From Parelaphostrongylus tenuis (Eukaryota; Nematoda; Chromadorea; Rhabditida; Metastrongylidae), in the NCBI GenBank assembly GCA_019055375.1, contig JAHQIW010007200.1:186001-250000 (forward strand): DNA of 64,000 bases. The letters run 5' to 3'. Shown in pieces: positions 2,886 through 57,745 of the stretch. The notes beneath the pieces were generated by a model. That model was not told the origin of the DNA and did not search any database. It worked only from the letters and a program-made list of their open reading frames with translations. Each line of letters opens with the position of its first letter. Within the stretch, counting starts at the first letter, position 1. Both the position numbers and the translations under genes were made by a program.

Positions 2886-3484
2886 TATCGCAATAATTAT
2901 GTTTTATCATCAGCTTATCCAACACAAATCATTACACAAACCATCAGTCAAGAAGGTTACTCTGTGTTTCAGATCCGTACATCAAATCTAGAGACGATTC
3001 GTTGTCTTACTGAAGTGATTTTCTATTTTATTACGCTATCACACGTATGTAAATAATGTTTAATTTTATGCTATTCACTCGATGAGATTTTTGTAAGAGC
3101 ATGTCAATTCTCGTCATTCCTCACATCATCATCGTTTCAATCATGTGTATAAGCGTCCTCCACTTTTTTTGTCAGAAACAATGAGAAAACGTCGTATTGG
3201 AAGTGCGAAGGCAAAGATATGTTTGTTCTCAGTCAGTTTTCTTTCCCCTGACTTTGTCACCCACTCTAAGATTGTCCGTTCCAAAATCTATTTAAGCTCT
3301 TGGAGGTGAAAATTAGTTCACCGGGATTAATCTACATAGCTTGTCAGGTAATTGATGCATTTCAGCAGGCTAATCAAAGCAGAAGAGACCTTCTATCTGG
3401 ATATGCAATGCAATAGATTTTTAAATACTCTTATCATTGACTGTTTATATACACCTCGCCCAAAAACACTAAAAAACTGATATT
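2886..3484. other. No gene recognised
   Basis: AT-rich sequence without a recognisable gene, RNA or repeat. Confidence 0.5.
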
Positions 3485-3785
3485 CTGATAACATGATAAC
3501 GTGTTTTGAGACTTTTATGGGGTCTGGTAAGGCAATTTTACAACTAAACGGCTGTTAGACTCTGGTCACTGCAGTGTCGGGGGATTTGTCACTCGACATG
3601 CGGTGGTCCAATAATTAGGCTCGATTTCTTCATAAGTAGTGGTATATCTCCAGCGATGGGTCGGTTGAGCCGAAAGGCACCGTGCTACTGATGGGCCTAC
3701 GAGGACGAAACAGCAACTGTTTAGCACTCTATGAGTGACGTACCAAACCTCATAAAAGCCTCAAAACATATTATCATGTTATCAG
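3485..3785. mobile_element. Hammerhead-bearing inverted-repeat element, family F1, copy 1
   Basis: A 301-bp element with terminal inverted repeats. It starts CTGATAACATGATAACGTG and ends with the complement of that (…AACATATTATCATGTTATCAG). The repeats extend inward through a TTTTGAG-CTTTTATG-GGTC block. The right arm contains a degenerate hammerhead motif at 3682-3727. The same family occurs at 56301-56647 (two opposed hammerheads), as a right half at 35111-35217, and as an interrupted copy at about 55358-55893. There is no coding capacity. Confidence 0.65.
3682..3727 (+). ncRNA. Degenerate hammerhead ribozyme motif (F1 copy 1)
   Basis: Stem I is intact (GTGCTA pairs with TAGCAC). The GAAA box, a CAG/CTG stem III and a GTT cleavage triplet are in place. 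The CTGATGA core box reads CTGATGGGCC, so the conserved A9 and one stem II base are lost. Probably inactive; recognisable by comparison with 35116-35161 and 56562-56609. Confidence 0.5.
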
Positions 3786-4375
3786 ATCCCTAATACTTTT
3801 CTAGATACACATCACAATATGCGTGAAATGCGAAGCAGCTTTTACTTACAGGAGCCATATTTGATACCGTTTTGCGTTTTTAGGGATCGTTTTGGACCCT
3901 TACATAATCTCTCTGAGCTTTCTACCGTGCACAGAGAGACTGTGTAAGTGCCCAAAACGAGCCTAAAGGGCAAAACAGCACCAAACATAGCTTTAGTAAG
4001 GAAAAGCAAGTATGTCAGCAAAAAGAACTCTCTTTTAGCAATGACCCAATTAGGGAAAAAGGGAGTGAAATATACAGAAGAAGTAGATCAAAGCACGCTA
4101 TATTATCTAAGTAGTACAGAGTGCACTTATCATATTTTGTTACTGAGGACAGTATCAAGAACTATGAAGTAAATGTACTGAATCTGACTGTAACAAAATT
4201 GGAATAAATTGAGTTCGAGAAATCCTTATGCTCTTTAAGCTTGTGATGGCTTCTGCTTCTACCGCTACGTGTGTACTGCCAAGTAGTTGCCATTGACACT
4301 TGAAAAACTGATCGCAATATGTCGTGGAAAGGCAAGATTACAAAATACATTGAAACTTGACGATTTTTATTTCCT
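3786..4375 (+). repeat. Segment duplicated at 35215-35760
   Basis: This 590-bp block follows the F1 element and matches, in the same orientation and order, 35215-35760. Examples are TTTCTAGAT-ACACATCACAATA, GCTTTAGTAAGGAAA, TATTATCTAAGTAGTACA and GCCAAGTAGTTGCCATTGACA. Short open frames in both strands are broken differently in the two copies. Because the F1 right half is also shared, the duplicated unit is larger than one transposon. Confidence 0.7.
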
Positions 4376-6678: not shown

Positions 6679-6727
6679 GGGTCTCTGACGAAGAGGACGA
6701 AACCTCCGAAACACCGGTGTATGTCCC
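6679..6727 (+). ncRNA. Hammerhead ribozyme motif, 5' repeat of F3
   Basis: The core CTGACGA, a stem II (GAGG/CCTC), GAAA and a loop-less stem III CACC/GGTG are followed by the TA cleavage doublet. Stem I (GGGTCT against TGTCCC) has two mismatches, so activity is doubtful. Compare with 6945-6992, where stem I pairs fully. Confidence 0.55.
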
Positions 6728-6944: not shown

Positions 6945-6992
6945 GGGTCACTGACGAGGAGGCGAGACCTTTGAAACACCTGTGTATGGCCC
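6945..6992 (+). ncRNA. Hammerhead ribozyme motif, 3' repeat of F3
   Basis: The order is stem I GGGTCA, core CTGACGA, stem II GGAGG-loop-CCTTT (two outer G-T wobbles), GAAA, stem III CACC-TGTG (partly mismatched), TA, and stem I' TGGCCC. Stem I pairs over six positions with one wobble. All core nucleotides are present, so this copy could fold and cleave between 6986 and 6987. Confidence 0.65.
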
Positions 6993-12169: not shown

Positions 12170-14440
12170 GACATTTAGATGGACCGTCTTCACTGGATGT
12201 GCGGATTCCAGCACATATTCCAAATGATATTTTGCTGGTCGTGCATATGATATTTCTAGGTTTCCTGACGTAATTTGCAAAGGCGTTTTTTAGGTCTTCA
12301 CGATGTCGCTTCCAAAGAACGGATTTCGGCGATGGATTCTTGGCTGAGCTTTCTACTTGTTGATTCGGAGATGATTTTAGGCCGAAATCAAAAGCAGATG
12401 TATGAGAGAAAATCAACCGATCACGAATTATGTGGACTCCACAATCCTAGGGATTTTTCAATGAGGGGAATGTTAAAAATAAGAATTCTTTTCGTATAAC
12501 CGCTTTTTTAGAGGTTGTGTGATGATACAAATATGCCCAATTTTGTTCAGTGATATGCAAAAACGTTTGAGTCAAGCGGGACTCGAACTTGCATTTTCTC
12601 CCATCTGTGATAGGTTTACAACATCATACCACGGCTAAAAAGCGACTAAACAAAAAGAATTCTTCTCGCTAACAATTATATCCATCACTAGCGCAAATGG
12701 ATAAGCGCTCTCGAAAAGGTTTTAAATGCGGTTTTGAGTCCAATCTGACGCAAAGGTTTTGCACATCACTCAACATTGAAGAGGAAAATGTATTCGGCAC
12801 CTTTTTCATTTTCTGCGAAGTGTAGATTCAAAGCGTACGTCATCTGGCCTTACTTATGTATTCTTGAGGCTAATAATCAAGCAAATTTTTCAAGAGCGTG
12901 CTTTCGTACATTCATTTGCACATTACCTAGTAAAATTCAAATAGTCGGAGGACTTCATTCCCACGAAAAAACAGCATATTGCGGAGGAGATTTCAATGGC
13001 TACTAAGAAGAGTGCCTCAGCAATATGTATTTCCTAGTAGAAAAGCGGCATCATTTGAAACTGAGCATAATTTGAACTCTCATTGCGCTTTTTTGTTGCC
13101 TATTTAGTGAAAGTGAGACCGTCTTTTCCTACTTCCGATGGCCATATCTCCATGGGAAGCAAGCGGGCAGAAGAGATCTGTGAATTCCTGTCGGGCATTC
13201 ACAGCCACATTCACGTGGTCACACTGAAGTTGCTATAAAGGTTTAAAACTCGAGAGAGGCGAAAGGAGTCGCTTTGAGGGCAATCAAGTGAAAAGGTGCG
13301 TAGAATAAGCGAAATAAGAGGGCTGTGCAATGGCAACGGTTGCAACAACGAATAATGTTTATAATAAAGTGTAAGTGGACAATGAAAAGAGATTCTCATG
13401 GAACGATTGCAAAAAATTTTCGAAGAATCTATGAAGGTTCCACTGCTTAATCACATTAGTAAGTCAGAAATTATTGAGAGTTATCGACAACCGGAATCCC
13501 TTGCAGCATGCATCATTATTTTTGACGAAAGACTAATTGTTTTTTGATTTTCATTCAACAGTTCTAGTGACTTTTGAGTATTGTATATATTGAGAAATAT
13601 CAAGACTTGAAGATATATATATATACATTATATATATATATATATTGTAATAAACTTTGCAAAACCTATTACAATTAAATTAATGCCGGAACAGCATGAT
13701 TGTTAGCACTAGCGTTTTTTTCACACATAAGAGCTAGATATGCTATAAAGAAGGCATAGGAGCGTGAAAAAAATTATGATGTACTAGAGCAAAACAAGAA
13801 ACCCAAAAATTTCTCCAGAGCGGTGGAAAAAAAACCCAAATTAAATAGCGAAAATCGAATGTCGCTTTGAGATTCGCGCTCTACGCAGCGATTTCTATTA
13901 CCATTCAGAGGAAGATGACAATATCAATGCTACGAAAATATGAATTAAAAATGCGCACTTTCGCCACAAACGAATTCCACGAACTGATGAAAGTGTATCG
14001 CAGCTACAGCAATTTCTTTTGCATACCAAAATTACATTCACATAAGTTCTTTTTGATATATGTACATTGCAATAATCTCGCATTAAAATCTGATACGCAT
14101 GTGCTATCGAGCACTGAGTGACTTTCTCTTTTGTACGAATTTACAAACTGGTGGATGCATAGAGATTAATCAATCATGAGAAGCAAATTAATATCACGTA
14201 TGACAGCATAAACTGAAGTAGTTACTCCAGTGATCGTGTGTCTTCCATTGTCATTACATTGAATCCATCTACTTCAGCTATAAAAGCAATTTTGTGAATG
14301 GCGAGCGCAGAAAAAAAGCTGGAATATAATACTTTTATTTCGAGTGTTTTATTAGGACCACGCTCAAATTTCAATAAACATCATGATCGTTATCTGAGCC
14401 AGCATGTCATGGAGTCTGTTAATGGACTCTTGTACAGCCC
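12170..14440. repeat. Left arm of inverted duplication IR2
   Basis: Reverse complement of 24980-27725. Anchors are 12176-12260 against 27625-27725, 13211-13350 against 26560-26700, 13400-13600 against 25800-26050, and 14150-14440 against 24985-25180. The arm contains the RTE R2 3'-end remnant (12170-12270), a tRNA-like foldback (12535-12780), an AT microsatellite (13612-13645) and the beginning of an F2 element. It lacks the foldback insertion found at 26058-26558 in the other arm, which gives an empty-site comparison. Confidence 0.8.
12535..12780. repeat. tRNA-like foldback repeat
   Basis: Two opposed tRNA-like arms. The left (about 12550-12620) reads in reverse as a B-box-bearing head next to TTTGCAT; the right (12690-12775) runs from AAATGGATAAGCGCTCTCG to GACGCAAAGGTTTTGCACAT. 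The left arm contains GGACTCGAACTTGCA, the reverse of a GGTTCGAGTCC-like B box. The same design recurs at 15371-15505, 26058-26558, 27130-27400, 41395-41670 and 47790-48320. None is a usable tRNA gene. Confidence 0.5.
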
Positions 14441-14700
14441 GATACACGTGTTTCGACTTTGACAGTCCTCAGTCGGGCGGAACCCGTCGTCTCTAGTCTT
14501 TTGCCAATCCTCTCGGGAGCCTCCACTCTCCCTGTCTAGAGGGTAAGACGACAAATGATTTATACTGCGCTGCCGCCAAGTGAAAAATCACAAGATCGGC
14601 AATTTTCGATTCTCGATTGCTTCTGGCTGATAATTTTGTAATATCGGGCTGTACAGGGGGTTATTAACAGACCACATAACATGTTGGCTCAGATAATGAT
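14335..14700. mobile_element. Hammerhead-bearing inverted-repeat element, family F2, copy 1
   Basis: The left arm (minus sense) and right arm (plus sense) share the words GGCTGTACA, GTTATTAACAGACC, ATGTTGGCTCAGATAAT and their complements around a central non-coding stretch (14500-14620). The same centre and arms make up 35795-36262. A degenerate hammerhead lies on the minus strand at 14437-14478. The left arm is also the outer edge of IR2. Confidence 0.6.
14437..14478 (-). ncRNA. Degenerate hammerhead motif (F2 copy 1)
   Basis: On the minus strand stem I (GCCCGA with TCGGGC) is perfect. GAAA, the loop-less CAC/GTG stem III and the TA doublet are present. The core box has lost bases (CTGAGGAC where the intact copy at 36107-36149 has CTGACGAGAC), so it is probably inactive. 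Confidence 0.5.
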
Positions 14701-16031: not shown

Positions 16032-16061
<30 letters not shown>

Positions 16062-16066
<5 letters not shown>

Positions 16067-17348
16067 ATATATATATGTCATCCTAAACAGGATTGACAGA
16101 ACACTGGACGAAGGACAGCCATGCGAACAAGCAGGGTTCCGAAAAGGATTTAGTGCCATGGACCACATCCACACGATTACAAGACTCATCGAAGTTTCAC
16201 GAGAGTACAAACAACCACTCTGTCTCACTTTCATCGATCTGAAGAAAGCCTTTGATTCAGTGGAAACAGAAGCTTTTATAGAGGCTCTGGATAACCAGGG
16301 CGTCCCTACTCGGTACATAATGATCCTTCGTGAGCTTTATAAAGATTTAACGACCAAAATATCTCCATTCTACAACGATATCACCATTGACGTAAGAAGA
16401 GGGGATCGACAAGGCGATACAATTTCGCCAAGACTATTAACTCCCACCCTACAAAACGTCATGCGAACATTAGAATGGGACGAAATGGGAGTGAAAATTG
16501 ACGGTCGACAGTTAAACCATCCTCGCTTTGCTGACGATACCGTTCTCATAACACCAAACATCAGGCAAGCGGAACGAATGTTGACCGATTTTGATAACGC
16601 CTGTGGAAAGATTGGTCTTCAACTGAATCTAACGAAAACAATGTTCATGAGGAACGGATGGGTTCCTTATGCCCCATTCACGCTCAACGGAACGACAATC
16701 TCCGAATGCTCCAGTTACGTCTATCTAGGTCGCGAAATCAACATGATGAACGACCTAGCTCCAGAGTTAAGCAGGAGGAAACGAGCGGCTTGGGGAACGT
16801 TTAAAAGCATCGAAGATGTAGTGAAGAGAACAAAGAACATCCAACTCCGTGCCCACCTTTTCGACTCGACAATTATCCCTGCCCTGACGTATGCAGCAGA
16901 AACCTGGTCGTTACGTAAGCAGGATGAAAGATCACTTGCCGTTATCGAACGCGCAGTCAAAAGGTCGATGCTAGTAGTATCCCGTATCTCGCAAATGAGA
17001 GAAAGGATCCGAAGTACCGACCTATGTCGACGATCGAAAATCAGAGACGCCGTTCTACACGCCAGGATATCGAAAATAAGGTGGGCCGGACACGTGATGC
17101 GCTTCAACGACAACCGATGGACGAGAGCCGTTACCGACTGGATTCCTCGAGACGTCAAGCGCTCTAAAGGAAGACCACTGACCCGTTGGTCCGATTTCTT
17201 CACGAAAGCGATAGAAGAAAGATATGATGCTCAGCGAATCCCTAGAGCGAGGAGGACCCACTGGGCTACTCTTGCACGCGATAGGGAAAAATGGAAGAGT
17301 TTCTCGTACCCGCTCGAGTCACTCGACGATCAACGGGACAACAGGTGA
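16062..17348 (+). CDS. RTE-type LINE reverse transcriptase ORF, 5'-truncated (family R1)
   Basis: An uninterrupted reading frame of 428 codons covers the reverse transcriptase of an RTE retrotransposon, which copies its RNA into DNA at a nicked target. Visible motifs are GQPCEQAGFRKG (fingers), FIDLKKAFDSVE with a catalytic Asp, RQGDTISP, the catalytic box FADD at 16527-16538, and the RTE C-terminal region (KIRWAGHVMR, GRPLTRWSDFF, THWATLARDR). The endonuclease domain and 5' end are missing: the copy starts in a TA microsatellite, so the listed start codon is arbitrary. The 3' end is the short tandem CAGGTGATACAGGTGATA, typical of RTE tails. It cannot move on its own. The open frame suggests a fairly recent insertion compared with the other LINE copies here. 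Confidence 0.85.
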
Positions 17349-26057: not shown

Positions 26058-26558
26058 CACTATTCCCATTGATGTACAGCAATGTGCAAAACTTTCGCAT
26101 CAGGTGGGACTAGAACCCTCACCTCACTCTTTCCGGGAATGCGTGCACCATCCGTTACACTACTGACGCCCATTTTGCACATCGCTCTTTCTACGCTTCA
26201 GCGCGCCTATCTGCCAGCCGCCAGCCGTCAACTGCTTGGTCACGTACCCACTCACGCTGACAGATGTTGGGTATCAAAGATCAAATGATATTCGTTTTTA
26301 TTTTACCGCTTATAGCGATGGGCCAGGCCGTTGACGGGTGGCGGCTGCGAGATAGGTGCGCTGAAGCGTAGAAATAGTGATGTGCAGAGTGGGCGTTAGT
26401 AGTGTAACGGATAGAGCACGCATTCTCGGAAAGAGTGAGGTGCGGGTTCTAATCCCTGCTGACTCGAAAGCTTTGCACTTTGCTTTACATCAATGGGTAT
26501 ATACTTGAAACATCATACCACCGCTATAAGCGGTTAATAAAAACAAATATCACTATAC
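26058..26558. mobile_element. Foldback element with tRNA-like arms, inserted in IR2
   Basis: About 500 bp with long inverted arms. The left arm has a reversed tRNA-like segment (26080-26175) and the right arm a forward one (GTAGTGTAACGGATAGAGCA followed by GGTGCGGGTTCTAATCCC). The arms also share CAGCCGCCAGCCGTCAAC against its complement around 26220 and 26330. The left IR2 arm is continuous across the insertion point (near 13350), so this is a true insertion. No protein is encoded. Confidence 0.7.
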
Positions 26559-30305: not shown

Positions 30306-30364
30306 TTTTTCTATTTTTTCTTTTTTAAGCATAAACACGAGCTGTCCATTAAACTTTATTTCAC

Positions 30365-30400
30365 AGCTGACGTTTCAGCAGTTCGCCTTCTTCAGAGCCT
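30365..30400 (-). ncRNA. Penelope-type hammerhead-like motif (outer repeat)
   Basis: Minus strand: AGGCT, CTGAAGA core, AGGCGAACTGCT stem II (pairing weakened by one change), GAAA, a two-base-pair stem III (ACGT) and C cleavage site, then AGCT. Hammerheads with minimal stem III are known from Penelope-like elements; this assignment is by resemblance. Confidence 0.5.
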
Positions 30401-30628
30401 GGAAAGGTCAAATTGTCCGCAATCCAGTCAGTCAAACACCTCCATTACTTCTTTAGAATAAATTACCAGACCTAGATTTTGATCGCATCAAGCACAAAAT
30501 CAACACTCAACATACTTCTTCTAACAATTCCCAAGACCGACTGCCTATTAACCTCGGCATGCTTCAGTATGATTCTTGATTTTCTTCTATGAGCAGAACA
30601 CGAGGTGTTACATTAAACTCTATTCGAT

Positions 30629-30664
30629 AGCTGACGTTTCGGCAGTTCGCCTTCTTCAGAGCCT
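30629..30664 (-). ncRNA. Penelope-type hammerhead-like motif (inner repeat)
   Basis: Same layout as 30365-30400 with the stem II arms intact (GGC/GCC). Stem I pairs four bases (GGCT with AGCT, one wobble). Confidence 0.55.
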
Positions 30665-30887
30665 GGAAAGGTCAAAATGTTAGCAATACAATCAGTCAAA
30701 CACCTCCATTACTTCTTCAAAGAAAATCACCTGACCTAGATTTCAATCGCATCAAGCAAAAATCAACACTCAACATACTCACCGCTTTTTATATGTGTTC
30801 CACTGAATGATCCAAGTGGAGATCACCGGAAAGAGAGACACATAGGCTCGTAATGCACCCTACCCATCAAAACAACAGTCTTATATA

Positions 30888-32968
30888 CTAGCTCATATCA
30901 CGAGTGTTTACAAGGCATTCCTCCCTGCGGTTTATGGTTGGATTGGTCGTATTAATCCAAAATGCTTCCAAGATCTTTCGCGCTGATGTTTTTTGCTCCT
31001 GCGCAAGGATGGTGACTTCGATTTCAAAATCAACTCCGTCGTGCTTCTGTGCTCTATGCGTCCCTAGCGGGGTGTTTCGTCTATTAAGACGCTTGTCAGC
31101 TAGGTGTTCCTCTATGCGTGCATGAGAGCGGCCTACCCGTTTCGCCATATATTTATCACTACACACTTTGCAAGAGATTAGGTAGACTGTACCTACGCTC
31201 ATGCAATCACCGCCTCTGCCGTTAGGACATATTTTACAATCTTTCATTATGCAGAGACGGTCATATAAGCGGTTGCGAACTAGTTGGCGTTTCAGAGTAT
31301 TCGGTGGTATTTCAATAATGGCCACCGATTGCTCTAAACCCGCTCTTTTCAAACATCGTTTTATAGCTGTACTAATCTCATTTGAATAGAACGGGATGAT
31401 AAACGGGACTTTCCTTTCAACTCAAGTTTTCGTTCGGAGGCGCATTATTTCCTCTAAACCTAAGCCGAGGGGTTACGAATTCGTATCCATTATAAGTGGC
31501 TATTTCCTGCGCCAGTTTCACGGATTCTACTCTCTGCTCCTCCCCGGTACATACATTGGCTGCTGTTCGAAACATGTTTTTTACTAGCGCCTTTTTCGTA
31601 TGTGAGGGATGAGAAGAGAGATAGTGAACCAAGATATTCTTACTACTTGGCTTTCGGTACCTCTCTGTTATGTAGCCGCTCTCAGTTAAGCTTATTTGCA
31701 CGTTCAAGAATGGCAGCCAATCGTCTTTTGGTATCTCACGGGTGAATCTTATGAACTCTGACTGTTCATTCAGCAATCTGAAGCAATTATCCAGCTCCTC
31801 TTGAGTGGAACGGATAATCAAACAATCATCTATATACCTACAGTAGAGTAATGGCCGGAGATGCATTGCTGGTGCTTCCACTTTAGACATAAACGCAATG
31901 CGCCAGGCTAGGTGCCAGTCGCTGTCCCATTGCCAGCCCTCTCGTTTGAGCATAATAATTCCCGGGCCATCGGAAGATTGAGCAGTTCAGACTCTCTTTT
32001 AATAGGACCATGAACTGCCCAATCGACAAGCCATACATGTTTACAGATCCATGGTGTTGTATCAGAAGCTCATGTGTAGCTTGAAATGCGGAGTAATTCG
32101 ACACGATGGTATATAAAGCAGTGACGTCAAATGGCTCCATTACGTAGGCGTTGTTAGGGTTCGCGTTACGTAGACGATCCAGGAACATCTGAGTGTTTGT
32201 CAGATGGGCTGGAATGTGTCCTAGCAACTGAGATGTTATTAAAGTCAAGAACCATGCTATCCTATCCGTCGGTCCGCCTACACAACTGATGATAGGTCTA
32301 ACTTTGAATATAGATGGATCGTTAGACATCAGACCATCAGTGAATACTAACTTATGTGTTTTCATAAGAAGTATAAGACAGGAAATGTTAGTGACTGGAT
32401 TTTTAATTGAGAAATGTTAGATGGTCTTAAGCCTGCCGCTTTTACCGTATGGACTCACTCATTTTGAGTTTGCGGATTTTGCCTTTTGAATTCCTTCACA
32501 GAAGATGATCGGTAAAGAGAAGCATCCTCGAGATATTTGTTCGTTATTGCGATATCTAACTGTCGAGGAATCACAACACAATTCTCCACCCTCATCACTA
32601 ACTGATAGCCATATCCTTCCTTCCGCTTATCAACTCTTGAATCTCTTTCATGCCACGCTTTTGTAGTTCGGTGAGGTTCGATTGGAATCTTTTCGTACGA
32701 TAGTGAGTGAGGGTTCTATAAGTCTCGTCCGTAAATCTCCGGATTTATCTATCAATCTCCTCATTTGGGTCTTTTTGTCTATAGAACGGCTGAGGAAATG
32801 GTGGTATTGGTGCAACCTCCACTTGCTGTTCATCCCTATCAGTCTCTTCAGCTCTGGCCTTTTTTCGGAGTTGGTCTTGCAAATCATATGAGCTACATGC
32901 AACCTTACGCAAGGACACCTTAGAAATGGGTTGAGATGGTGAAAAAGAGGTAGTATCCTGATGATGAT
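30888..32968 (-). pseudogene. Penelope-like element 1 (RT plus GIY-YIG endonuclease), broken
   Basis: Minus-strand relic of a Penelope-like retroelement. The N-terminal region (32968-32400) is frame-scrambled. The reverse transcriptase follows: 32365-31883 with KVRPIISCVGGPTDRIAWFL and DVTALYT, then 31953-31417 with the catalytic RYIDD (codons at 31825-31836) and the thumb SSHPSHTKKALVKNMF. The GIY-YIG-type endonuclease (31352-30888) has CKIC zinc-binding cysteines, GTVYLISC and ARIEEHL. A one-base deletion turns the expected KYVGETG segment into another frame, and a frameshift near 31900 splits the RT. It lies head-to-head with element 2, with no intact polyprotein. Confidence 0.85.
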
Positions 32969-34440
32969 CCAATGTCTAACGACCCATTTATATTCAAAGT
33001 TCGATCCCTCATCAGCTGTGTAAGCGAACAGACGGATAGGATAGCATGGTTCTTAACGTTATTAGCATCCCAGTTGCTAGGACCACACCATCTGACAAAC
33101 ATTCAGATGTTCCTGAATCGTTTGCGTAACGCGAACCATAACAACGCGTACGTAATGGAGTCATCTGACGTCACTGCTCTATATACCAACGTGTCGAATG
33201 ACTCCGCATTGCTAGCCACACATGAGCTTCTCGTACAATACCAGGAAGCTGTAAACATGTACGGCTTGTCGATTGAGCAGTCCATGGTCCTATTGAAAGA
33301 GTGTCTAAACTGCTCATCCTCAGATGGTTCGGGAAATATTGTACTCAGATGAGAGGGCTGGCAATGGGACAGCGACTAGCACCTAGCCTGGCGATTGCGT
33401 TTATGTATAAAGTGGAAGCACCAGTCGATGCATCTCCGGCCATTACTCTACTGTAGGTATATAGATGATTGTTTGGTTATCTGTTCCACTCAAGAGGAGC
33501 TAGATAATTGCTTTAGATTGTTTAATGAACTGTCAGAGTATATCAAATTCACCCGTTAGACACCAAAAGAAGACGATTGGCTCCCATTTTTGAACGTGCA
33601 ATTAAGCTTAACTGAGAGCGGCTACATAACAAAGAGGTACCGAAAGCCAAGTAATAAGAATATCCTGGTTCACTATCTCTCTTCTCATCCCTCACATACG
33701 AAAAAGGCGCTAGTAAAATACATGTTTCGAACAGCAGCCAATGTATGTACCGGGGACGAGCAGAGAGTAGAAGCCGTGAAAACTGGCTCGGGAAAGTAGC
33801 CACTTCTAATAAATACGAATCTTATAACCCCTCGGCTTAGGTTTAGAGGAAACAATGCGCCGCCAAACGAAAACTTGAATGAAAGGAAAGTCCCGTTTAT
33901 CCTTCCCTTCTTTTCAAATGAGATTAAGTACAGCTATAAAACGCTGCTTTGAAAAGAGCGGGTTTAGAGCAATCGGTTGTCATTATAGAAATACCACCGA
34001 ATACTCTAAAACGCCAACTAGTTCGCAACCGCTTATGTGACCGTCTCTGCATAACGAAAGATTGTAAAATATGTCCTAACGCCAGAAACGGTGATTGCAT
34101 GAGCGTAGGTACAGTCTACCTAATCTCTTGCAAGCGTGTAGTGATAAATATGTTGGCGAAACGGGTCAGGCCGCTCTATGCTCGCATAGAAGAACACCTA
34201 GCTGACAAGCGTCTTAATACACGGCAACACCCCGCTAGGGACGCATAGAGCAAAGAAGCGCGACGGAGTTGATTTTGAAATCGAAATCACCATATTTGCG
34301 CAGGAGGAAAAAATATCAGCGAGAAAGATCCTGGAAGCGTTTTGTATCAATACGACCAATCCAACCATAAACCGCAGGGAGGAATGCCTCGTAAACACTC
34401 GTGATATGAGCCAATATACAGGACTGTTGTTTTGATGGGT
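32969..34440 (+). pseudogene. Penelope-like element 2, 5'-truncated and broken
   Basis: Plus-strand relic starting inside the RT (SNDPFIFKVRSLISCVSEQT) directly at the head of element 1. It continues with a YIDD box (33458-33469), the thumb (33590-33799) and the endonuclease (33949-34248 and beyond, with CKICPNARNGDC, GTVYLISC, then KYVGETG in another frame). Several frameshifts separate the pieces. Its downstream sequence (34440-34760) matches the terminal repeat of element 1. Confidence 0.85.
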
Positions 34441-34638
34441 AGGGTGCATTACGAGCCTATGTGATGTCCTCTTCGGTGATCTCCACTTGGATCATTCAGT
34501 GGAGCACCTATGAAATGCGGTGAGTATGTTGGGTGTTGATTTTCTGCTTGATGCGATTAAAATCTGGGTCTGGTAATTTTTTCTAAAGAAGTAATGGAGG
34601 TGTTTGACCGATTGGATTGCGGACACTTTGACCTTTTT

Positions 34639-34674
34639 AGGCTCTGAAGAAGGCGAACTACCGAAACGTCAGCT
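34639..34674 (+). ncRNA. Penelope-type hammerhead-like motif (element 2 end)
   Basis: AGGCT, CTGAAGA, AGGCGAACTACC, GAAA, CGTC, AGCT. Stem II GGC has lost one partner (ACC). Same position relative to the terminal repeat as in element 1. Confidence 0.5.
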
Positions 34675-34760
34675 GTGAATTAATGTTTCATGTAACGCTT
34701 CGTGTTTTGGTTGAAGAAGGAAATCAGGAATCGTATGAAGCATGCCGAGGTTAATAGGCA

Positions 34761-35110
34761 GTCTGTTTCGGGAAAAGTTTTTATTGCGAACCACAGACAA
34801 AGAGTTTGTCAGATGAAGCGCTACACTAAGCCTACGGTTACATAAAAATCTACGCACATAAAGATTTAAATTCGTAAACACAAAAAGTATCATGCGTAAG
34901 GAAGAGGATCGGCAAGATGATGGTCTAAAATAGATTCAACACAAAGAATTACTTCCTCACACCACATGGCAAAAATGTTCGAAGAATAAAAAGTGGCAAG
35001 TTCATCTTGCGATGGAAATGTAAGCACAAAGAACGTTTGCCAGCTGCGCGTTCGTTCGCAAACACCGACAACTTACACGAATTACAGTATTCCAAATTAC
35101 AAAATCCCAA
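34761..35110. other. No gene recognised
   Basis: Possible extension of the Penelope 5' region (PINLGML-type reading on the minus strand near 34740). Otherwise nothing supportable. Confidence 0.35.
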
Positions 35111-35217
35111 ACAGCGTACTACTGAGGAGCCTGCAAGGGCGAAACAGCAGCTGTCTAGTACTCTATGAGCGCCGTACGAGACCTCATAAAAGAGTCAAAA
35201 CATGTTAACGTGCCATC
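35111..35217 (+). mobile_element. Right half of an F1 element
   Basis: Contains the hammerhead at 35116-35161 and the terminal AGACCTCATAAAAGAGTC…GCCATCAG. The left half is missing. The flank continues into the block duplicated from 3786-4375. Confidence 0.6.
35116..35161 (+). ncRNA. Hammerhead ribozyme, complete core, GTC cleavage site
   Basis: The order is stem I GTACTA, core CTGAGGA (fits CUGANGA), stem II GCC…GGC with a short loop, GAAA, stem III CAGC/GCTG with a one-base loop, then GTC, and stem I' TAGTAC. Stem I is perfectly paired over six bases, and stem I differs from the GTGCTA of other F1 copies on both sides. That compensated change argues for RNA-level selection or an independent active lineage. 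Expected cleavage is after 35155. Confidence 0.75.
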
Positions 35218-35760
35218 AGATCTTTAATAATTTTCTAGATGCGTATCACAATAAGAGTGCAATACGAAACATCCGGAGTTCTTTTTACCATGCATAGAGA
35301 GATCGTACGAGGGTCCAAAACGAATTATAAAATGTAAAGCGGCATCAAATTTGGCTTTAGTAAGGAAAGCGAATATGTCAGTGGAAACGAGCTTTCTTTT
35401 AGCGAAAGACCAATTATAAAACACCTGCATGATTAACAATAGGGAAAAAAGGTGTGAAATATCCAGAAGAAGTAGAACAAAGTACGCTTTATCATCTAAG
35501 TAGTACAAAGTTTACTTATCATATTTTGTTATTGTGTTCAGTATCAACAGCATATGACGTAAATGTACTAAATCTGACTGAAACAAAATTGAAATAAATT
35601 GAGTTCGATGAGAAATCCTAATGCTCTTTACGCTTGTGATGGCTTCTGCTTTTACCGCTACGCTTGTACTGCCAAGTAGTTGCCATTGACAATTGAAAAA
35701 CTGAATCATAATATGTCCTGGAAAGATAAGATTACAATATACATTAAAACCTGACGATTT
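35215..35760 (+). repeat. Segment duplicated from 3786-4375
   Basis: Same order and orientation as 3786-4375 with many substitutions and indels. No open frame is conserved. It lies between the F1 half and the F2 element. Confidence 0.7.
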
Positions 35761-35794
35761 TCCTTAGAAGGGTTTAAATAAAAGAAATTTTACT

Positions 35795-36262
35795 TTCTCT
35801 TCATTATTATTTGAGCCAATATGTCATGTGGTCTGGTAATGGGCTCTTGTAGAACCCGATACGCGTGTTTTCGACCCTACTGTCTCGTCGTTATTGCACA
35901 TCACGTCGTCTTTCACTCTTTTTATTAGCCAGTCCTCTCGGGAGTCTGCTCTCCCTACAGAGAGGTATGGGAGACGAACGATTTACATTGCAAGTCAAGT
36001 GAAAACATCACCGAACTTCCAGTGTTTTACTCTCGATTGCTCTTTGGCTGCTATTTTTATCATATTATACCCTTATTTTGAGTGTTCTATCAAGACGACG
36101 GGTTTTGCTCGACTGACGAGACTGGATGCTCGAAACACGTGTATCGAGCTGTACAAGAGCCCATTACCAGGCCACGCGAGATGTAGAATCAAATAGTAAT
36201 GAAGAGATCTATTGAAGTTTGAACGTGGTCTCAATAATACACTCGAAATAAGGGCATAAAAT
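35795..36262. mobile_element. Hammerhead-bearing inverted-repeat element, family F2, copy 2
   Basis: The left arm (35795-35900, minus sense) and right arm (36085-36262, plus sense) share GGGCTCTTGTA, CAGACCACAT-type and ATTATTTGAGCC-type words. The centre matches 14490-14640. The right arm holds an apparently complete hammerhead and the left arm a decayed one on the minus strand (35855-35895, where the core reads AACGACGA). No coding capacity. Confidence 0.65.
36107..36149 (+). ncRNA. Hammerhead ribozyme, complete core (F2 copy 2)
   Basis: Stem I GCTCGA pairs perfectly with TCGAGC. The core is CTGACGA, and stem II is GAC…GCTC (first two pairs good, third mismatched). GAAA is followed by a loop-less CAC/GTG stem III, TA doublet and predicted cleavage after 36143. 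Confidence 0.7.
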
Positions 36263-41394: not shown

Positions 41395-41670
41395 GCTTCT
41401 AGCGGTGGTATGACCTAATAATACTCAATATCTGTCAGCGTGACTATGTTCAATGTCGAAACTGACTACCCGAACCTGGCCGTTGGTGAGTGGCGGCTGA
41501 CAAGTAGATGCGCTGCAGCGTAGTAAGAGTGTTGTGCAAAATGGGCGTCAGTGGTGTAACGGATAGAGCGCCTCTCTCGGATAGAGTAAAGTGCGGGTTA
41601 TTGTTCCGCCCGACGGGAAAGTTCTGTACATCACTCTACATCAAGGAGTGTATTATTGTACTACTATGGC
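41395..41670. repeat. tRNA-like foldback repeat
   Basis: Contains CGTCAGTGGTGTAACGGATA (A-box-like) and AAGTGCGGGTTATTGTTCCG (B-box-like) in the right arm, with the GTGGCGGCTGACAAGTAGAT block shared with 26330-26370 and 48140-48180. Confidence 0.5.
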
Positions 41671-55357: not shown

Positions 55358-55893
55358 GGTGATAACATTTTTCAAGCCTATCATGAGGTCCATTGGCACC
55401 CATACACTGGAAGAAGGTGTTTGAGCGATAAAGCCTCGCCATTAACACTTTACATGGTGCTTGTCGGTTCAGTCGGCCATGTGGGGAAATATCCCATATA
55501 TAGATGAATCGACGCCGAAATATTTACACGTGCCGCTAGGCGATAAAATCATCCAACGGGTTGTGTTGCACAGTTGATTGCTCGTAGCTGGTAAAAGAAA
55601 AGAAGATTAAAAAAAGGAAAGGGAGAATAGTATAATAGGTAAGGAAAGAAGGTATGACAATATGTTTTACTAGCCACAGGCAATCGGCTGTGCAACACTG
55701 TTAAGTGATTTTGTCATCAAACTACACGTTTAAATATTTAGGCATTGGTTTCTCTAGATGGGTGATATCTCAACGCGGAACTGATCGAGCCGAAAGGCAC
55801 CGTGCAACTGGACAGGCTATAAAGCTGAAACACATGTAACAAACTGTACAAGCGTCATAAAAAAGCTCATAAAAAGCTCAAAATATGCTATCA
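55358..55893. mobile_element. Interrupted, decayed F1 element
   Basis: The left terminal part (GGTGATAACATTTTTCAAGC…ATGAGGTC) and right terminal part (AGCCGAAAGGCACCGTGCAA…GCTCAAAATATGCTATCAG) match F1 ends at 3485-3785. They are separated by unrelated sequence. The hammerhead near 55785-55840 is destroyed (core CTGGACAGG). Confidence 0.5.
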
Positions 55894-56300
55894 GATTATG
55901 CCTATCCATAAAGGTATGCAAAATACTCCGCACAAAGTTCATGGTGATTATCACAGATCTTCCAAGGAATTCATAATTTTTGCTTAAAATTATACACAAT
56001 ATACAATTCCGACAAAGCGTCTGCAACTTACCTGAAAAGAGACTCTCTTACATACAGATATTCTGCAGGGCCAAGTATTAAAGTCATTAAAAATGCTCTG
56101 ATGAAGATTGGTTTGCCGAAACATCACTTAGCATTTTCCTCGTTAGCTTTTCCTGTAAATGTGCTGATTATTGTATTCCAAGAGGCGCTTTTTTCCGACT
56201 ACAGTGTTGGCATCTATGAGGTGAGGAATAAGTTCTGATAGTTTTTTTTCAGTTATTTCAACAGTAAGAAAGTAGTACGGAAACGAATGAATACTATATT
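55894..56300. other. No gene recognised
   Basis: Contains GATGAAGATTGGTTTGCCGA-AACATC near 56101, a terminal-repeat-like box with a GAAAC-like end but no hammerhead core. Confidence 0.35.
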
Positions 56301-56338
56301 CTGATAAGGATATAACATGTTTTGAGCCGTTAGATCGA

Positions 56339-56386
56339 GTGCTATACAAGCGTCTGTTTCGTCCTACCAGGACTCATCAGTAGCAC
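56339..56386 (-). ncRNA. Hammerhead ribozyme, complete (F1, left arm, minus strand)
   Basis: Read on the minus strand: stem I GTGCTA, core CTGATGA, stem II GTCC-TGGTA-GGAC (four perfect pairs). Then come GAAA, stem III CAG…TTG, the GTA triplet and stem I' TAGCAC (six perfect pairs). This is the closest to the textbook consensus in the window. Confidence 0.8.
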
Positions 56387-56561
56387 TTCCCCTCGGTTCA
56401 GCCGATCTCTTGGAGCTAAATAATCCTTTACAAAGGGAATCGACGTCGAGTAATAAATCACTGCAAGTCAGATGATTTAATTGCCTGGCATTTTGATGAC
56501 CTGGGTCGATTCCTTCATAGAGGATTTTTTAGCCTTAGGGGATCGTCTGAACCGAAGGAGG

Positions 56562-56609
56562 GTGCTACTGATGAGTCCCGGTGGGATGAAACAGGCGCCT
56601 GTATAGCAC
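56562..56609 (+). ncRNA. Hammerhead ribozyme, complete (F1, right arm)
   Basis: Stem I GTGCTA/TAGCAC (six perfect pairs), core CTGATGA, stem II GTCCC-GGT-GGGAT (one G-T wobble at the base), GAAA, a loop-less palindromic stem III CAGGC/GCCTG, and the GTA triplet. Predicted cleavage after 56603. The loop-less stem III suggests cleavage works best in a dimer or tandem transcript. Confidence 0.8.
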
Positions 56610-56659
56610 TCGATCTAACGGCACAAAACTTGTTAAATCCTCATCAGATTATATCATTT

Positions 56660-57745
56660 TGAGTGGATCTATAAGAAAGCGGTCAAAAGGAGAGACGAAT
56701 GACTGCATTTAGTTGAAAGAATAATTACGTTTATTAGATCAACATTCACGGCAATCAGCGTAAAAGCTTGTAATATACAGCGAAAATTGCCTTTTCTGGC
56801 CTTTAAAAATTTAGAGGCCGCTTGAGAAAATTTCCAACGATGCTCGTACACGGCCCCACTGTAATTTCGTCCCAAGCACATGTCAAAGTCGCTTTAAGTG
56901 CATCTGCACTAGTGTAATAAGAAACCAAAATTTCTTCCTGCAGTATGAATCATACCGAGTAATTGAATGAATTGAGGTCCGGCGAGTCTGACGAACAAAT
57001 GTTATTTTCCCAAAAGCTTCGAAACAACTCTTGACAGATGGCAATCGTTGAGAGGGTCGACGCGCACGAGTGCAGTCCTACTGAAACGTAAATCCGTGGG
57101 TGCCGAAGTGTTAAGTACGCCGAGGTTCCAGTATGTCCCGTTTGCTGATGATAACTGGCATCGTTAATTTTGACGTACCCGCTTATGAAGATCGATAGCG
57201 TCTCTCCGGTGTGCATATATCGGCCCAGAGCAGCACTCACAAGGGCCGGAAAATGACTACGGCCCATGATTTTGCTATGGCCGACGTCTACTGAGCTTTC
57301 TTGAAAAGTTGGCGTCGATTCTGACGATTGTAGAGTGGTTTACCATGTTTATTTTCTCATACACAAAAGCACCACTTTTAATAAACGAGCAACAGCTATC
57401 AAGCGAACCGTTAGGCGAGTCTTTAAAAACCGTTTTTCTTTCATCTTTGTGTTCAAAAAGTAAACACGAGCGATTTTGTAACTGCGCAGCTTTACCTTAT
57501 TCTTGACAATGTTTTGGATGCTCCACTCGCTCGTCCCTAAATTTCCGAGTCATTTTATGCGTCAAACACTCCGGATTTCGTTGAATCTGCAGAGTATCTC
57601 CTATATCTTTTACGGAGTAGACGTGGTGGTTGGAGGACCTTTTCAGGGGCGGTCCTCGATCCCTCAAGTTTTTTTGAAATGTTTCACAGCTCTGTAGACA
57701 CTTGATGGTTTGGTACCAGTCGATTTTAGGAATGTCGGCCATTTT
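56660..57745 (-). pseudogene. Tc1/mariner-superfamily DDE transposase relic
   Basis: Minus-strand remains of a DDE transposase. The N-terminal DNA-binding part (57742-57497) shows KDIGDTLQIQRNPECLTHKM, the RRNP-type linker of this group. The catalytic C-terminal part (57267-56950) ends in FWENNICSSDSPDLNSFNYS, which corresponds to the family's IWPPSSPDLNPLDYSVW segment with the second Asp in place. The tail (56881-56669) corresponds to the C-terminal region. Several frameshifts. It lies just beyond the F1 element but has no visible link to it. Confidence 0.7.

Follow-up and report, generated by a model that had tools for sequence, protein, structure and literature searches.

Head-to-head insertions of a putative hammerhead retrozyme in Parelaphostrongylus tenuis resemble those of Penelope-like elements

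Within the window (the whole 64,000-nucleotide stretch of Parelaphostrongylus tenuis DNA analysed here; C4878:186001-250000), a near-palindromic repeat with a hammerhead ribozyme in each arm is best explained, and in our judgement probably correctly, as an old insertion of a small non-autonomous retrozyme and not as a ribozyme designed to work from two strands. In this explanation, RNA of an animal-type retrozyme was likely reverse-transcribed from both cut strands of the target by the machinery of Penelope-like elements (PLEs). The inverted layout is most plausibly a trace left by integration, and as an insertion the element appears to work like a PLE. Although less exotic than a ribozyme designed for two strands, this reading bears as evidence on retrozyme movement. 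According to the accessible text of four papers (PMC7229834, PMC7761336, PMC8969392, PMC11722881), the mode of movement of animal retrozymes is open, and PLEs (or LINEs) are candidates only, on the basis of common features and co-occurrence; a young retrozyme and a young PLE that show the same unusual insertion anatomy in one genome make the helper proposal testable.

The insertion spans 401 bp at positions 56291-56691 and is flanked by an 11-bp target site duplication with one mismatch (GAAACGAATGA at 56280-56290 on the left, GAGACGAATGA at 56692-56702 on the right); an equally good match arose in 4 of 300 trials in which the flanking letters were shuffled. The element is larger than the 347 bp (56301-56647) assigned to it in a preliminary description, and it is asymmetric. 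The arms of the near-palindrome (56290-56436 and 56512-56658) are 82% complementary, and the right arm runs about 40 nt further out than the left (hereafter, the tail). Described in positions of the 282-bp retrozyme unit (u; see below), the left, short arm (56291-56501, retrozyme sense on the minus strand) has its outer end at about u47, with a BLAST alignment to the unit over 56297-56501, and the right, long arm with its 3' tail (56505-56691, plus strand) has its outer end at about u89. The inner head-to-head junction lies at 56502-56504, where the left arm ends near u127 and the right arm begins near u186. Mapped in this way, the window copy appears to fit the pattern of the younger loci. 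No protein is encoded, as previously noted: the longest ATG open reading frame (ORF) has 36 amino acids, and the Penelope-type reverse transcriptase with GIY-YIG nuclease is absent from the element.

Both arms contain a hammerhead of type I fold, one at 56338-56387 on the minus strand (cleavage expected between 56345 and 56344) and one at 56560-56611 on the plus strand (cleavage expected between 56603 and 56604). They have CTGATGA and GAAA cores, a GTA triplet and a stem I of at least 6 bp, so that the six base pairs first counted hold as a minimum. Using a full-fold scan (stem I of at least 4 bp, CTGANGA, stem II, GAAA, stem III, UH), we found five matches in the window, including the element's pair, compared to a mean of 0.05 per dinucleotide-shuffled window (40 shuffles), which confirms two opposed hammerheads with intact core and GTA triplet, one per strand. 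The 5' end of minus-strand RNA had been placed at 56338, and cleavage at that ribozyme would instead leave 56344. An Rfam search of the window gave no match at the gathering score, and the covariance models recognised the element only below threshold (at E ≤10, type I with 17.9 bits and E 0.19 on the minus strand; type III with 13.6 bits and E 8.7 on the plus strand). Younger family members reached 29.5 bits with Hammerhead_1 (RF00163; E 5e-4), and the core, three helices and cleavage triplet fit this model even though 29.5 and 17.9 bits are both below its gathering cut-off of 34. Since the core and stems are kept, we accept the unit as carrying a type I hammerhead, judged from its sequence, despite these scores.

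Arm-to-arm differences within the window ribozyme mostly preserve pairs when compared by eye, including an exchange of C-G for U-A in stem II. Across 49 old arms, 88.7% of the stem cells hold standard pairs, and the covariation score of 0.147 was reached by none of 500 shuffles; structures slid by 1-3 columns remain below the true structure in both respects (23-49% pairing, scores of 0.03-0.07). Two-sided changes fill 11 cells, compared to 4.9 ± 1.9 in shuffles, a count that is weak on its own because slid structures give 3-14 such cells, the two-column slide exceeding the true structure with 14. In these 49 arms, two-sided changes occur at 5 pairs, which does not exceed the shuffles. Thus, compensatory change, to which the preliminary description had pointed as a check, is present as some covariation, and the two-sided count adds little to it. 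No other 48-column stretch of the old arms is as well conserved as the ribozyme (rank 1 of 142), with a conservation of 0.916 in its core versus 0.833 in the rest of the arm. Both core motifs survive in 26 of the 58 old arms and not in the other 32.

A circular unit has a predicted fold of -83.9 kcal/mol, or -80.9 kcal/mol with the ribozyme enforced, and isolated hammerheads are predicted to favour another pairing by 0.1 (young) to 3.6 kcal/mol (window, right). For RNA spanning the whole palindrome, the predicted fold is a single long hairpin in which the ribozyme is buried, and given this prediction the earlier proposal, in which each strand gives rise to a ribozyme, probably does not describe a function. 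Rfam microRNA matches in the younger loci L042 and L072, all below their own cut-offs, were taken as artefacts of long hairpins.

To identify further copies, the 347 bp were compared to the assembly (481.5 Mb, 5105 contigs). All 40 places scored, of 3949 candidates, were family members including the window, and 39 of them were near full length on both strands. Dropping copies with shared flanks and one half copy left 29 loci, then 25 independent ones. The consensus of the 29 is a palindrome with nearly equal arms, and a tail is present on one arm only in 27 of them (the exceptions are L022, with tail-like sequence on both sides, and L004, which is cut by a contig end). Target duplications of these older copies were read without a chance control, whereas those of the younger loci described below have a cross-locus control. 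Two candidate explanations of the old arms were rejected: short (S) and long, tailed (T) arms are not two lineages (S-S 0.254, T-T 0.248, S-T 0.251), and neither arm has the A to G excess of RNA editing of a palindromic RNA.

Younger copies were found with the youngest old copy (L032) as the query (182 matches; 40 scored of 1498 candidates). Among them are palindromes of up to 98% similarity as well as single-arm matches (96-100%), many of which are arranged in direct tandem. From cleavage site to cleavage site the unit measures 282 bp, and direct tandem units of 281-283 bp occur up to seven in a row. A head-to-tail trimer of the unit has no ATG ORF longer than 18 amino acids, and GC content is 0.44 in the unit and 0.43 in the window copy. 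By its testable features (type I hammerhead, short non-coding unit, GC below 50%), the family is, as far as sequence can tell, an animal-type retrozyme; direct tandem copies of a short unit (about 150-450 bp) are a feature of the younger members and not of the single window copy. An inverted design of the element as such is not supported: the unit also occurs in direct tandem arrays, and inversion appears to be made at each insertion.

The younger set comprises 35 non-redundant loci, and because these were picked by likeness to one head-to-head query, the proportions that follow need not match those of the genome. Twenty-nine loci are head-to-head (left arm minus, right arm plus, ribozymes outward), six have a single orientation, some of which may have an opposite arm because the end caller is blind to arms below 40 bp or 88% identity, and none of the 35 is tail-to-tail. 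Target duplications are present in 34 of 35 loci, 25 of them of 12-13 bp (12 bp, n = 18; 13 bp, n = 7; 14 bp, n = 3; 15 bp, n = 2; 10 bp, n = 2; 11 bp, n = 1; 8 bp, n = 1; lengths include nucleotides common to element and target). Duplication scores are at least 10 in 33 of 35 loci, compared to 9 for the best of 60 cross-locus pairings. One duplication pair brackets both arms in all 29 head-to-head loci (at least 10 bp in 28; 8 bp in L070). Inversion after insertion, by nested second insertions or by rearrangement of a tandem array, is the least credible reading that we weighed: tandem arrays can rearrange and 6 of 35 loci have a single orientation, but the single pair enclosing both arms in 29/29 and the constant orientation stand against it.

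The outer ends of the arms form two clusters: 30 ends lie within u89-108 and 32 within u29-56, leaving a single end outside both. Twenty-six of the 29 head-to-head loci combine one end in u80-110 with one in u25-60 (near u90 and near u43, respectively); two of the remaining loci have two short ends and the third has one end elsewhere. Microhomology between end and target, measurable at 39 of 63 outward ends, averages 2.04 nt (26 ends) and 2.31 nt (13 ends) versus 0.37 nt at random unit positions, and reaches at least 3 nt at 11/26 and 8/13 of the measured ends (0.022 expected). With their preferred sites, microhomology and target duplication, the outer ends look like starts of reverse transcription. 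The marks of Penelope-type insertion, namely a head-to-head layout, a one-sided tail and a duplication of variable length, occur in 29 of the 35 younger loci and in the window copy.

Inner junctions differ from locus to locus: 28 are found in the 29 head-to-head loci, L043 and L044 having one in common. The palindrome therefore seems to be made at integration, and the inner ends look like free cDNA ends that were joined to each other. On the unit, the distance between the two arm stops exceeds 20 nt in 24 of the 29 loci and is within 20 nt in the other five, and u159 is the start of the right arm in 5/29 (including the query locus L042). Arm lengths are unequal as well, with seven and four hammerheads (in L072, seven on the minus strand followed by four on the plus strand) or one and six. 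These data bear on a palindromic foldback or MITE-like DNA element that transposes whole and has hammerheads in both arms, a reading to which the preliminary description was close. The 38 further near-full-length palindromic copies among the 40 places scored of 3949 candidates, the palindromic 29-copy consensus with its nearly equal arms and the junction common to L043 and L044 would all suit such an element. We nevertheless consider it very improbable, since the ends are asymmetric where terminal inverted repeats of a MITE or foldback transposon match, duplications vary between 8 and 15 bp where a fixed length belongs to that class, inner junctions vary by locus, numbers of direct units differ between arms, and the old short and long arms are not separate lineages. 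Of the genome-wide check proposed earlier, the many copies with both arms were found, with asymmetric ends and differing inner junctions in place of common ones.

In all 35 younger loci, the cleavage site of the unit is crossed by one or both arms (it is not crossed by the left arm of L087), so that the template was presumably not a linear cleaved monomer and would have been a circle or an uncut multimer. The state at u30 is the same in both arms in 19 of 19 scorable loci of 25 (by unit majority; L072 is tied on one side), and units inside one arm differ at u30 in L072 and L073, a difference that a single circle explains less well than template switching or a multimeric template would. Whole-unit differences (2.13 within an arm, 2.95 between opposite arms, 2.86 between loci) had first suggested that each insertion draws on two different RNA molecules, a suggestion weakened by the agreement at u30 and by another stretch of the unit, where differences within and between loci are equal (0.83 and 0.83; 18 loci).

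The main rival to priming on both strands is snap-back self-priming, in which the cDNA end of the first arm folds back and copies itself into an inverted arm, as proposed for rotifer PLEs in the accessible text of PMC3846280. Agreement of the arms at u30 (19/19) would follow from it, as would the derived bases that both old arms of one locus have in common (110 versus 63 ± 10, the highest of 300 mismatched pairings giving 96) and the five of 29 loci in which arm stops are at most 20 nt apart. We consider it unlikely, because a preferred end site and target microhomology are found for the second arm as well, which lacks the tail, arm stops are more than 20 nt apart in 24/29 loci, and arm lengths differ as described above. 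Both-strand priming remains the preferred reading.

An old head-to-head pair of the candidate helper type occupies 30316-34774 in the window. Its inverted copies (30528-32339 and 32962-34774) are 89% alike, and we take them to be PLEs from the appearance of their ORFs; a Pfam search of these ORFs gave no match. Terminal repeats of the pair (30316-30502, 30513-30765 and 34537-34773) have hammerhead-like motifs near their outer ends, and no clear target duplication beyond a 9-mer was found. The genome also contains a PLE with open frames of 893 amino acids that is 93-94% like that of the window over the part searched. It occurs both as tandem arrays, whose units measure about 2985 bp, and as head-to-head pairs, and has a hammerhead-like motif in its terminal region. 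Among 150 places scored of 11537 candidates, read by eye, all 10 opposite-strand neighbours within 6 kb are in minus/plus order, that is, head-to-head. A pair on C1100 has a long end (AGAAGAAGTACC), a short end about 60 nt earlier and a 12-bp duplication (AATAATGAAAGG); another on C2303 has the same long and short ends, and no target duplication was found there. A small old head-to-head PLE pair in L067 has a 14-bp duplication with one mismatch, read without a chance control. When the PLE end region was used as the query, 8 of the 40 matches listed ended at position 254-256, which is the long end, and most others continued in tandem. The tail of the retrozyme (TAGCAGAAGTA) resembles the PLE end (TAGAAGAAGTA) by eye; the retrozyme and the PLE end region have no long common sequence, the longest match being 11 nt.

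The young PLE of this genome thus has the head-to-head layout and the two end types seen in the retrozyme, with a duplication in one of the two pairs read. Another element could also have moved the retrozyme, for example the one represented by an RTE-like reverse transcriptase ORF at 16035-17348 (best protein match in P. tenuis, a strongylid nematode, 93% over 91%), presumably an RTE-type LINE. Its presence in the window speaks for such a helper, which we hold to be improbable given that the PLE matches in head-to-head layout, in its two ends and, in one pair, in a 12-bp duplication (a comparison that covers PLE ends only).

The insertion that we favour would proceed as follows. The type I hammerhead of the 282-nt unit would cut multimeric transcripts into units, which by analogy with other retrozymes, as described in the accessible text of PMC7229834, may then be circularised. 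Unit RNA, circular or still multimeric, would be the template for the PLE machinery. Staggered cutting of the target, by about 12 nt, would expose two 3' ends that both prime synthesis, one starting near u90 and the other near u43, each after pairing of a few nucleotides. Joining of the two cDNAs at their inner ends would give the head-to-head arms, which form palindromes when they are about one unit long and inverted tandem arrays when they are longer. Our confidence in this explanation is slightly lowered because two loci have one junction in common, near-symmetry is seen at five junctions, and only one PLE pair of the two has a duplication. We lean, by a narrow balance, towards a further generalisation, a paired PLE reaction in which a double cut leaves 3' overhangs of about 12 nt, one end primes at the inner and the other at the outer RNA start, the complete insertion is a head-to-head pair and palindromes are its footprint. 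If true, this would be sequence-level evidence for a retrozyme helper and for strand-specific choice of start sites in PLEs.

Animal (non-LTR) retrozymes described by Cervera and de la Pena (2020; PMC7229834, accessible text) are likewise non-coding, with units of about 170-400 nt that carry a type I hammerhead and occur in direct tandem. Their GC content is low, their duplications, when present, are longer than 4 bp, and PLEs are named there as candidate helpers. The younger P. tenuis insertions differ from them in being mostly head-to-head and in having two distinct preferred outer ends; the terms 'inverted' and 'nematod' do not occur in the main text of that paper. In the available sections on Adineta vaga PLEs (PMC3846280), inverted pLTRs are mostly head-to-head with a short tail on one, and target duplications are 8-10 bp in the cases quoted; these PLEs encode a reverse transcriptase and an endonuclease, whereas the retrozyme encodes nothing, and self-priming is proposed for them where we favour both-strand priming. 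For PAc, an Anolis PLE assayed in vitro (PMC11167929, as far as its accessible text goes), both target strands are cut and extended, two internal start sites bound a tail, targets are AT-rich, and a hammerhead at the ORF start is dispensable for insertion. PAc start sites are reported to show neither homology to the cut DNA nor a strand difference, whereas the retrozyme mostly combines one of each site with microhomology. The insertions described here also bear on PLE integration, the later steps of which are 'yet to be validated' according to the same text. In the literature searched, mostly without subscription papers and in the parts accessible, we found no report of head-to-head retrozyme arrays.

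Other repeats with hammerhead-like motifs occur in the window. At 3484-3837 lies a related, more decayed palindromic copy, with arms at 3484-3529 and 3741-3786 and, near 3682 on the plus strand, a damaged hammerhead. An intact-looking hammerhead at 35116-35161 (stem I gtacta/tagtac, GTC triplet) belongs to the sister family of 3484-3837, 80% alike over 160 bp; the two sister loci have downstream blocks in common (35437-35761 with 4047-4367). The 3484-3837 family has a further decayed copy (70% alike) at 55787-55899, and a hammerhead-like remnant at 56098-56140 lies just upstream of the element. Inverted repeats of another family at 35796-36207 and 14386-14700, with decayed hammerhead-like motifs near 36113 (plus) and 14451 (minus), show that the inverted layout recurs, and this family also adjoins the PLE at C1100 (L093, by eye). 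Same-strand hammerhead-like motifs at 6685-6702 and 6945-6992 lie 266 bp from each other and belong to a direct repeat of about 100 bp; of the two, the full-fold scan accepts the second alone. An inverted repeat at 26061-26501 (179-bp arms, 87% complementary; partial copies at 41475-41644) had no hammerhead in the core scan. At L042, an additional Hammerhead_1 match (1297-1345, 28.5 bits) lies about 170 bp from the retrozyme insertion.
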